A stretch of DNA of 22,971 bases from a virus: positions 1 to 22,971 of IMG/VR virus record IMGVR_UViG_3300021964_000572, one strand, 5' to 3'. A program made the position numbers and the translations under genes. Numbering within the stretch: position 1 is the first letter of the stretch; every line of letters starts with the position of its first letter. The notes below the pieces were generated by a model. That model was not told the DNA's origin. It ran no database searches and saw nothing but the letters and a program-made list of their open reading frames with translations. This document shows positions 1,159 to 18,320 of this stretch, piece by piece.

Positions 1159-1164
1159 GGATTT

Positions 1165-1486
1165 ATAAATAGTTTACTGTGGAGGGTATAAACCTCTATA
1201 CTATAGGTCGCGAGAACAGGGTTCTGGGTGAGTACGGTTGCAAACTAAAGCCCCGCCTACAGCACACACTATTTACATGTTCCAGGTGAAAAGTGGCGCA
1301 GGCCTATTCACCTGGATAATTTGTTGGTCTCTCTGTCTGGAGGTAAACGCGCGCAGATATGAAGAGGGACCTACTAATTATCTGGATGCTCTGGTCCAAC
1401 TCTCTTTGTGAGCAAGCTTCGGCCTATCACAAATGACAAGTTGGACCTGAGGATCCGAGCCACGAGCGTCAAGCGGCAAGCTTGAC
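1165..1486 (+). ncRNA. Candidate structured non-coding RNA
   Basis: This G+C-richer stretch has its own promoter, no convincing reading frame, and consecutive long inverted repeats. Stem A is CCAGGTGAA/TTCACCTGG (1282-1290/1307-1315) with an inner GGC/GCC. Stem B is about 18 bp with two mismatches, GATAATT...CTCT (1315-1334) with AGAG...AATTATC (1363-1382), enclosing TCTG/CAGA. Stem C is GGTCCAAC/GTTGGACC (1393-1400/1440-1447), then TTTGTGA/TCACAAA (1405-1411/1427-1433), capped by a C(UUCG)G tetraloop at 1417-1422. A smaller hairpin is AGAAC/GTTCT (1213-1225). Stem D, GTCAAGC/GCTTGAC (1468-1486), closes the region. Stems A and B abut. I could not assign it to tmRNA, RNase P, 6S or any other class I know. 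Boundaries are inferred. Confidence 0.6.
1463..1483 (+). repeat. Heptamer array 1 (CAAGCNN, 3 units)
   Basis: Three uninterrupted seven-base units: CGAGCGT, CAAGCGG, CAAGCTT. They lie directly after the structured RNA, and two of them build stem D. The last unit runs into the -35 box of the next promoter. It shares unit and orientation with arrays at 1798-1839 and 2581-2708. Confidence 0.6.
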
Positions 1487-1510
1487 AATTGTTGTAGGAT
1501 GTTATAGGAT
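1482..1510 (+). promoter_or_regulatory. Promoter for the small-gene/GP88 operon
   Basis: TTGACA (1482-1487) lies 17 bases before TAGGAT (1505-1510) or 15 bases before TATAGG (1503-1508). The -35 is exact and the -10 weak. The ATG at 1518 is so close that the transcript would be nearly leaderless. Its -35 is embedded in the closing hairpin of the candidate RNA, so read-through or folding could affect it. Confidence 0.4.
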
Positions 1511-3292: not shown

Positions 3293-3841
3293 TTGTCTTT
3301 TACTCAAAACTACGCTATAAGTCAAGTGATGGGACGACATAAAGAATTAACAGAAATGCAAAAGAAATTTGCTTATGAACTCGTAAGTAATGAAGGCAGA
3401 AAAACAAAAACAGAGTGTGCAATTGATGCCGGTTATGATAAGAGCAGCGCAGTTGTTAGAGCTTCTGAACTAACTAATCCACAAAGATATCCGATGGTGG
3501 TTCAGTACATAGGACAGCTAAGAGAGGAATTTCAAAAAAAATATGAAGTTACATTTGAAAAACATATTGGAGAACTGGCTAAACTTAGAGAAGAATCTCG
3601 CAAAAAGGGAGCATGGTCTGCCGCTATCAATGCTGAAGTTGCACGTGGTAAAGCCGCTGGTTTATATATTGAACAAAAAATAATTAGGACCGGTAAGCTT
3701 GATGACTTGTCTGCCGAAGAATTAGAACTTCGACTAAAGAAAGTTATGGAAGAATACTCACCGATCCTAGAAGGTGTATCAGTTGAAGAACTTGAAGATC
3801 AAGTTAAATCTATTGACATGAAAGACACTCATCAGAATTAG
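3293..3841 (+). CDS. terS: Probable terminase small subunit
   Basis: The region KELTEMQKKFAYELVSNEG (from residue 18) through TECAIDAGYDKSSAVVRASE and QRYPMVVQYI matches the helix-turn-helix pattern of Terminase_2-type small subunits, which recognise the packaging site on phage DNA. A coiled, charged C-terminal half would mediate oligomerisation or large-subunit contact. The frame opens with TTG at 3293; the ATG at 3329 (MGRHKELTEM) is a reasonable alternative and neither has a clear RBS. The large terminase subunit is not in the window. It ends 32 bases inside the convergent small gene. Confidence 0.7.
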   Translation: MSFTQNYAISQVMGRHKELTEMQKKFAYELVSNEGRKTKTECAIDAGYDKSSAVVRASELTNPQRYPMVVQYIGQLREEFQKKYEVTFEKHIGELAKLREESRKKGAWSAAINAEVARGKAAGLYIEQKIIRTGKLDDLSAEELELRLKKVMEEYSPILEGVSVEELEDQVKSIDMKDTHQN

Positions 3842-17046: not shown

Positions 17047-17769
17047 TTATTTGTCTTGTTTTTCCATGTTGTCGTGGAAATCTTTTGCTTTAGCATAAAG
17101 TTCAGCATTTTGTACTGGACCTTCTGATTGCACAGCAAAACCATACCATTGATTACCTTTACCAGAATTTAATACTGAGGTTAATCTGTATGTGAAAGCA
17201 AATGATGCAGGAGTAAATGACCCTTGTTCATCTTTCATAGTCTGAGACATCTGAAGTGATTGCCATTTTCTTGCAACTTTACCTTGAGAACCACTCATAG
17301 AAATAAGTGCTGTTTCCATTTTACCATCATCACCAACTATGATTACAAAGTTTTGATGTACAGTTAAAATGTAATTACCATTCTCTAGTCTATCTTTAGC
17401 ACCATCCTTGGTAGTCTTAGATAGTATATCAGAATCAGCAGCAAAAATGTTTTCTGGTCTACCCGAACCAGTACCAAATTCTGCCCACTCTTGATATTCC
17501 ATTTTATAGTAACAAGGAACAACGCTTATTCCTTTATCACCATCATATAGTTTTTTAGTAACTATATTTAAGAACATACCAGGTTCAGCACCTTCAACGT
17601 AATTTTGATTACGTTTTTGAGCTTCTCCAGATCCATTCTGTAGAAGTTTTAAGATAGGTAGAGCAAGAGATTCTTGTCTTACGTTCTCAAAACCTTTTGC
17701 GGCATCATCTCTAAATAAAATAGTAGATGGCGTTTGTGCCTGTTGTTTAGTTGTTACTTTATTTTCCAT
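17047..17769 (-). CDS. Replication-region protein, possible ssDNA-binding protein
   Basis: 240 residues, soluble. The N-terminus is Gln/Thr-rich and flexible. LALPILKLLQNGSGEAQ (35-51), VEGAEPGMFLNIVTKKLYDG (58-77) and ISVVPCYYKM look like a beta-rich core. GKMETALISMSGSQGKVARKW and FTPASFAFTYRLTS follow. Position between the primase and a coiled-coil protein behind a strong promoter fits an abundant ssDNA-binding protein, and similar phage proteins are sometimes labelled so, but no acidic tail or OB-fold signature is visible. Role inferred from context. Confidence 0.6.
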   Translation of the reverse strand: MENKVTTKQQAQTPSTILFRDDAAKGFENVRQESLALPILKLLQNGSGEAQKRNQNYVEGAEPGMFLNIVTKKLYDGDKGISVVPCYYKMEYQEWAEFGTGSGRPENIFAADSDILSKTTKDGAKDRLENGNYILTVHQNFVIIVGDDGKMETALISMSGSQGKVARKWQSLQMSQTMKDEQGSFTPASFAFTYRLTSVLNSGKGNQWYGFAVQSEGPVQNAELYAKAKDFHDNMEKQDK

Positions 17770-17771
17770 GT

Positions 17772-18320
17772 TTAACTCCTTTTTATATTTGTACGGTTAC
17801 CCACGTATGTTTTAAAGCAATCAGGAAGATCGAGTCCAGACTCGTGAGCCTCCCTGAATGCTCCTTTTAAGGTCTGAGGATGTACTCCCACTTTCTGGAC
17901 AGGTTCGTATCCTTGACCTTTAGCAAGGACAGCATATTCTGCTGCCTTGTTATCTTCGCCACGACCAAAGGTAACGGTAATATCATTTTTAATAATATCA
18001 CCTCGACCGTTATCACGAAGCCATTGAAAAGCCTCTTCCTGTTTTTCAGGAAGAATAGACACACTATAGAAGTTTGAGACTTCAACAGTCTCGCCATCTT
18101 CTAGCTTTAATTTTTCTAATTTCATGTCTTTCATCATTTGAGGAATCTCAAATTGAGAAATGACATTTGCTTGTTCTTTTAATTTTTTTACACCTGCTTC
18201 TGCATTTGCAATTTCATCTTCTAAATTTTTTAATTGCTGAACTTTATCTGCTAATTGTTTTGGATCAACAACAGCCTTAACAGCATCAATTTTATCTTGT
18301 CTAAATTTTATGTCACTCAT
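17772..18320 (-). CDS. Coiled-coil protein of the replication operon (182 aa)
   Basis: 182 residues: a helical coiled-coil half (LADKVQQLKNLEDEIANAEA..., about 22-55), then a globular half with EAFQWLRDNGRGDIIKNDIT, VTFGRGEDNKA and VGVHPQTLKGAFREAHESGL. The second half recurs, as I recall, in replication regions of T7-like marine phages without assigned function. It starts behind an AGAAAGG site and the promoter at 18345-18372, and lies two bases from the next gene. Confidence 0.65.
   Translation of the reverse strand: MSDIKFRQDKIDAVKAVVDPKQLADKVQQLKNLEDEIANAEAGVKKLKEQANVISQFEIPQMMKDMKLEKLKLEDGETVEVSNFYSVSILPEKQEEAFQWLRDNGRGDIIKNDITVTFGRGEDNKAAEYAVLAKGQGYEPVQKVGVHPQTLKGAFREAHESGLDLPDCFKTYVGNRTNIKRS

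Follow-up and report, generated by a model that had tools for sequence, protein, structure and literature searches.

Pelagiphages are among the most numerous marine viruses, and Pelagibacter is a very abundant bacterium of the ocean. CRISPR arrays and integron cassettes both place constant connectors around changing inserts, and the kissing loops of retroviruses, like the loops of phi29 pRNA, contain a self-complementary stretch, whose sequence varies in retroviruses under a kept palindrome. Among structured RNAs, GOLLD, ROOL and OLE are reported to form homo-oligomeric complexes (PMC12286853). Rfam also lists Flavobacterium-1 RNA (RF02976) as an sRNA of unknown function, which we find as a module (81-116 bits) of nine arrays related to the one described here.

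Here, we describe a single locus in a marine phage group that, judged from sequence comparison, almost certainly encodes a structured, modular RNA, selected on the + strand and composed of a conserved core with mosaic connectors and cassettes. No account of such a modular array was found in open-access literature text. The initial annotation of this DNA had proposed a structured RNA that it could not match to known classes, and in the window (the whole stretch analysed, 22,971 bases) none of the 4227 families of Rfam release 15 reached its gathering threshold, the best sub-threshold match being a plant miRNA precursor (E = 0.57). ARAGORN reported no tRNA or tmRNA gene in the window, the RF02976 covariance model had no match there, and no Rfam class of self-cleaving ribozyme was found in the window or in 37 related loci.

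Genomic context of the locus

The window is an IMG/VR virus record with genes for DNA polymerase, primase and helicase. The genes around the locus are:

122-1084, - strand: divergent gene of 320 aa, the constant upstream neighbour
1518-1694, + strand: small gene of 58 aa, downstream of promoter-like site P2
1903-2505, + strand: GP88 family gene (PF17338, Pfam E = 8e-30), the constant downstream neighbour
3293-3841, + strand: terminase small subunit-like gene (PF03592, E = 1.5e-4, below the Pfam cut-off)

Relatives were gathered through synteny of the GP88 gene (80 viral loci) and through a scan for the sequence of promoter P1 that was blind to genes (50 viral stretches). Many loci share one gene order, namely the divergent 320-aa gene, P1, a structured stretch, CAAGC repeats, small genes, GP88 and the terminase small subunit. 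Among 32 P1 sites for which sufficient downstream sequence was available, 27 are followed by GP88 and 26 are preceded by the divergent gene; some of these sites stem from the GP88 search. The window shows the same context, with a P1 that contains TTGAC-N6/7-GTCAA, the divergent gene upstream and GP88 downstream. L002, the relative closest to the window in gene content, shares the hairpin at 1281-1316 and has an almost identical downstream promoter, with other modules around that hairpin.

The cultured pelagiphage HTVC027P carries the RNA in a stretch without annotated feature (MN698241, complement of 17671-18206), and among phage records it alone showed DNA similarity to the RNA of the window, at the 3' edge; a DNA similarity search with the array of L003 gave no match. 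In HTVC033P the neighbours and a possibly structured gap are present, and the modular array was not found in the part of the sequence that was covered. Phage 023Pt_psg01 (L135) lacks the usual divergent gene; its C1-type connector with a cassette (2720-2790) is flanked by a small gene and GP88. In cellular genomes the array was absent by one connector pattern, and a second pattern returned only a phage-like scaffold and one contig without the array.

AlphaFold2 gave a fairly confident model of the 320-aa protein (pLDDT 83), which had no family match and, in fold searches, no convincing match. Its gene begins 46 bases from the operator described below, and the protein could act as the regulator of that site. 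A hairpin (GGGGATAATAT/ATATTATCCCC) at 85-112 of the window, at the end of the divergent gene, is probably its terminator. A family search with the 58-aa gene gave none. GP88 has invariant cysteines (C31, C45, C48, C172, C181, C184 and C187) and the motif FRWHDSGD; its structure weakly resembles radical-SAM proteins (BtrN and a nitrogenase-cofactor protein) among many barrels, and fold searches with it gave no convincing match. Heptad repeats (CAAGCNN)n, on the + strand only, occupy 1470-1481, 1791-1840 and 2581-2692 of the window, in intergenic stretches as well as within small reading frames (the 69-aa frame at 1691-1900), and the same repeats come after the RNA arrays in relatives and in HTVC027P.

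Promoters and folding of the predicted transcript

The promoter elements around the array are:

1130-1158, + strand: promoter P1, TTGACA (1130-1135), 17-nt spacer, TATATA (1153-1158); predicted transcription start about 1165
1130-1146, + strand: palindromic operator-like site TTGACAATACCTGTCAA overlapping the -35 box, its sole occurrence in the window
1482-1510, + strand: promoter-like site P2, TTGACA-17-TAGGAT, 7 nt before the ATG at 1518

The RNA had been suggested to have its own promoter, TTGACA-17-TATATA, and this promoter is not only present in the window and conserved at this place in relatives, it is also accompanied by the operator palindrome. The window has two matches to TTGACA-N15-19-TATAGGAT, and shuffled sequences have none. 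In relatives, the TTGAC-N6/7-GTCAA of P1 keeps its position while its centre varies, and later TTGACA promoters of the same loci are without the palindrome. The RNA of the window sits between P1 and P2; the P2 region is 97% identical to that of L002 over 69 nt, and it lies so near the ATG at 1518 that a message from P2 would be almost leaderless.

The region 1165-1486 has a minimum free energy of -121.2 kcal/mol, compared with -92.7 ± 5.2 kcal/mol in 100 dinucleotide shuffles, none of which reached it (z = -5.5). Behind P1 in relatives, 42 of 51 stretches showed z < -2, compared with 6 of 60 control stretches (mean z of -3.8 and -0.6, respectively), and in 46 of 51 the predicted +1 and the beginning of the first stem lie no more than 6 nt apart, compared with 64% for random starts inside arrays. 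In L061, L067, L076, L095, L097, L098, L100 and L110, another conserved structured RNA (GTTGTGGACAGAGAGTCATCTTCC...GCCCCGAGCCACAAC) stands in the array's place behind P1, and further RNA types occur there in L040/L041/L044, L053/L055/L063 and L105/L107/L126.

As the initial annotation had noted, the region is richer in G+C (48%) than the whole window (33%) and the upstream gene (32%), and it lacks a convincing reading frame. A protein-coding region, or a structure that arose by chance, has next to no probability in our judgement. The longest frame, which would speak for coding, has 57 aa and starts with TTG (1238-1411), but the frames in 14 related arrays (34.8 aa) are no longer than those in shuffles (36.8 aa) and no conserved peptide with synonymous-substitution bias was seen. 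The fold score above and the covariation of the core below likewise argue against coding and chance.

A covarying core behind the promoter

The 5' end of the RNA holds a domain that the initial annotation had overlooked (1166-1275, closed by TAAATAGT/ACTATTTA):

1163-1277, + strand: core domain with helices P0 (1166-1173/1268-1275), P2 helix (1182-1185/1193-1196) and P3 (1201-1207/1256-1262)
1213-1225, + strand: hairpin inside the core, AGAAC/GTTCT, which is AGTAC/GTACT in L006 and L086 through compensatory changes

The closing helix reads CAGTAACG/CGTTACTG in the nearest relatives. We aligned the window (1163-1277) with 25 relatives, and RNAalifold predicted 18 pairs from these 26 core sequences, 12 of them with changes on both sides, in the same helices that had been derived by hand. 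Across 29 distinct sequences, 14 of the 19 core pairs have compensatory changes and 93% of the cells pair, compared with 26-52% in slid controls. For the core, the covariation score of 0.447 exceeds the 0.174 of shuffles and the values of slid controls, which do not go above 0.086; since the aligned relatives share ancestry, the shuffle counts are not probabilities. Covariation in homologues, on which the proposal of a structured RNA had been made to depend, is thus far above controls. In P3, an A-C mismatch (1203/1260) is conserved while the surrounding pairs change.

A covariance model of the core hit 34 places in 704 kb, a single one in each locus except L064 (two) and none elsewhere; since 26 of the sequences went into building the model, their hits are partly obtained by construction. 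The window, itself in the seed, scored 67.4 bits (E = 4e-14) with its helices pairing in register. A pseudoknot between the loop of the P2 helix (GTATA) and TATAC behind it is perfect in the window; it was rejected, as it is not kept in relatives.

Connector stems and exchangeable cassettes

Downstream of the core, the array is a mosaic of exchangeable cassettes found across pelagiphage-type viruses, an organization that was out of reach of the initial annotation. The window contains:

1281-1316, + strand: hairpin TCCAGGTGAA/TTCACCTGGA, also in L002 (90% over 42 nt)
1315-1382, + strand: connector stem C2 with exchangeable cassette, GATAATT (1315-1321)/AATTATC (1376-1382) and GTTGGTC/GACCTAC
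1326-1372, + strand: cassette GGTC-TCTCTGTCTGGAGGTAAACGCGCGCAGATATGAAGAGG-GACC, the same in C1 of L018 and L064 and in C2 of L084, diverged in C3 of L096
1384-1456, + strand: long hairpin with a C(UUCG)G tetraloop (1417-1422), found as an inverted repeat and in the centroid structure
1468-1486, + strand: hairpin GTCAAGC/GCTTGAC of CAAGC repeats, last in the array on its 3' side and overlapping P2

All the stems that had been read from the single sequence were recovered in place. The stem first given as 9 bp has 10 bp (1281-1290/1307-1316), the one of about 18 bp spans 18 nt (1384-1401/1439-1456, 89% complementary) around an inner stem that carries the tetraloop, the one of 8+7 bp corresponds to the bipartite stem that holds the cassette (1315-1382), and the one of 7 bp pairs 1468-1474 with 1480-1486. 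The support for the long hairpin comes from folding, since no clear homologue of it was found. Owing to its CAAGC repeats and its overlap with P2, the 7-bp hairpin may not belong to the RNA proper.

Three connector types were used to define slots: C1 (CTGATSCC/GGKATCAG), C2 (TAATTTGYTGG/CCTRCTAAT) and C3 (GGATNNAGTG/CRCTGGATC). The C2 stem of the window and its cassette, known from other settings, are identical at 65 of 65 nt in L084, behind a different core. The 76 slots of a first set were sorted into 46 cassette families. Ten families recurred, and six of these occurred in more than one connector type, two of the six on the basis of looser similarity. Enlarged by loci that were fetched through connector DNA, the set comprises at least 229 slots (at least 26 of them C2) in at least 162 loci, with at least about 157 cassette families; some contigs are present twice with different locus ids, and slots with identical context were counted once. 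Among the matches listed, positions 5-9 of the C1 cassette arms pair with their own partner in 94% of cases, compared with 58% when shuffled. The cassettes show no prominent binding motif in common; GGTAA seemed enriched in 46 families but not in 148, and was rejected as a shared signal.

The location of the array is equally constrained. Among the matches listed, 102 of the 119 contigs fetched by connector DNA alone have the array upstream of GP88 (nine end too early and eight show none), and of 199 placeable slots, 198 have the sense orientation and lie no more than 2.5 kb ahead of GP88. Arm mismatches on the + strand were G-U in 154 cases and A-C in 13 among the matches listed (26 and 1 in the first set), which indicates that selection acts on this RNA strand, whereas DNA cruciforms as the target would give even counts of the two. 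These observations bear on the possibility that the inverted repeats matter as DNA, in a packaging site, a replication origin or a recombination hot spot. Inverted repeats and cassette exchange at one locus would fit such an element, but besides the one-strand mismatch bias, all 94 placed cassette matches lie on the GP88 strand, never inverted, and the array stands directly behind a promoter. A DNA-level element is therefore most improbable.

Self-complementary loops

The cassette of the window carries a loop of the form GGAGGUAAA-CGCGCG:

1348-1353, + strand: self-complementary loop hexamer CGCGCG, behind GGAGGTAAA

A search for a 4-bp stem around RAGGUAAA-N6 on both strands of about 1.8 Mb of loci returned 14 places. 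The hexamer was palindromic in nine of nine array places (CGCGCG, CCGCGG, CCTAGG or CCCGGG) and in none of five background places, and the stem flanking it covaries. A palindrome that is kept while its sequence changes, as seen for the loop of the window, is what loop-loop pairing between identical molecules requires. Kissing-loop pairing is put forward as an after-the-fact lead from one cassette family. Across 148 unrelated cassettes among the matches listed, 136 palindromic 6-mers occur where 74 are expected, about twice the number in shuffles; within predicted hairpin loops overall, the excess is mild (13 versus 5.8 expected, with permutations reaching 15). In a second cassette family, the 8-nt palindromes were traced to short hairpins whose tetraloops are palindromic, which is weaker evidence than that from the hexamers in the family of the window's cassette. 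Overall, we regard self-association through loops as quite possible, if somewhat short of probable.

Self-complementary loops are also a feature of a packaging or particle RNA like phi29 pRNA, which would self-associate and serve the terminase or capsid. The proximity of terminase genes would fit (the gene for the small subunit lies some 2 kb downstream, and HTVC027P has that for the large subunit about 2.3 kb upstream), yet these phages have a terminase small subunit, the cassettes are more variable than expected of a machine part, and the downstream genes peak in the early to middle phase, ahead of packaging (PMC12753301). Such a role appears very unlikely.

Trans-acting RNA or leader

We consider it moderately probable that the RNA acts in trans rather than as a leader, and a trans-acting modular RNA is, if only just, a probable explanation of the observations overall. 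In the proposed mechanism, regulated P1 would produce, starting around 1165, a non-coding RNA some 300 nt long, whose 5' end, locked in a stem, would make it stable, and which would act in trans in the early-to-middle phase. Self-complementary loops such as that of the window would let molecules of the same sequence pair by loop-loop contacts, and the exchangeable cassettes would bind proteins or RNAs of the host or of rival phages as a decoy or scaffold, their exchange tracking changing partners. A decoy or scaffold as the purpose is tentative. Unlikely, on present evidence, is the full version of this idea, an RNA toolkit consisting of a self-pairing scaffold, cassettes that serve as aptamer-like inhibitors of host or competitor factors, recombination at connector stems and recognition of the own type through the loop palindrome.

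The main rival is a cis-acting 5' leader, in which transcripts from P1 run into the small genes and GP88 and the array stabilizes the mRNA or tunes translation; the identity of the cassettes would then be of little importance, since any stable hairpin would suffice. The array and GP88 are always co-directional and close (median distance of 398 nt for the C1 connector among the matches listed), and a stem at the predicted start, as in 46 of 51 relatives, resembles those of stabilizing leaders. In L040, L041, L055 and L067 the RNA extends almost to a ribosome-binding site, as expected of a leader, and this counts against a trans-acting RNA, as do the lack of a clear terminator ahead of the downstream genes, the lack of a common binding motif in the cassettes, the mild excess of palindromes in hairpin loops and the lack of a homologue of the long 3' hairpin. 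In HTVC027P, gp33 and gp34 downstream of the array make up a temporal cluster of their own, 6-9 h after infection (PMC12753301); this separate timing would fit a trans-acting RNA, and their common expression a leader. The same paper makes no mention of intergenic or non-coding transcripts. On the other hand, array and gene are separated by a second promoter in the window and in several relatives, and in L096 and L125 a cassette comes behind a small ORF, not before one. Moreover, the core sequence and its A-C mismatch are kept although mere stability would not need them, and whole cassettes are highly identical across different settings. A leader is thus rather unlikely. HTVC027P is in culture and has public strand-specific RNA-seq (PRJNA1253180, cited in PMC12753301), which makes the RNA testable now.

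Comparison with known RNAs and cassette systems

The RF02976 module adjoins the core or cassettes in L004, L009, L018, L046, L082 (HTVC027P), L106, L112, L119 and L127. It corresponds to about 121 nt of the 3' part, and its model is without core, connectors, cassettes and promoter. A Flavobacterium single-cell scaffold (L132, KB911123.1), found with a pattern of the RF02976 module, contains P1, the core, GP88 and a gene resembling the terminase small subunit; on these grounds it is a fragment of a pelagiphage-type phage, which is the probable reason for the name of the family. An orphan Rfam family is thereby explained as a fragment of a phage RNA, not a Flavobacterium gene. The cassettes also constitute a natural library, with more than 150 stable hairpins on which selection acts in a single virus group.

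The phage RNA resembles GOLLD, ROOL and other large ornate phage-associated RNAs in being large, structured and without known function. It differs from GOLLD and ROOL in lacking an Rfam match, in being shorter and in having exchanged cassettes, and we know of no cassette exchange in these or other ornate RNAs. The swapping of whole folded hairpins between fixed stems is, to our knowledge, the architecture of no described RNA class. The novelty rests on this exchangeable-cassette architecture, and a stricter reader could regard the RNA as a variant of large phage-borne structured RNAs.

With retroviral dimer initiation (kissing) loops, the RNA shares a palindrome that stays while the loop sequence varies; in contrast to those loops and to phi29 pRNA, the viruses and sequences are unrelated, and dimerization is a putative feature here. 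As in CRISPR arrays and integron cassettes, constant connectors flank changing inserts, and no cas gene, integrase or attachment site was seen with the array. Unlike in those systems, the connectors of the phage RNA pair as one stem around each insert.
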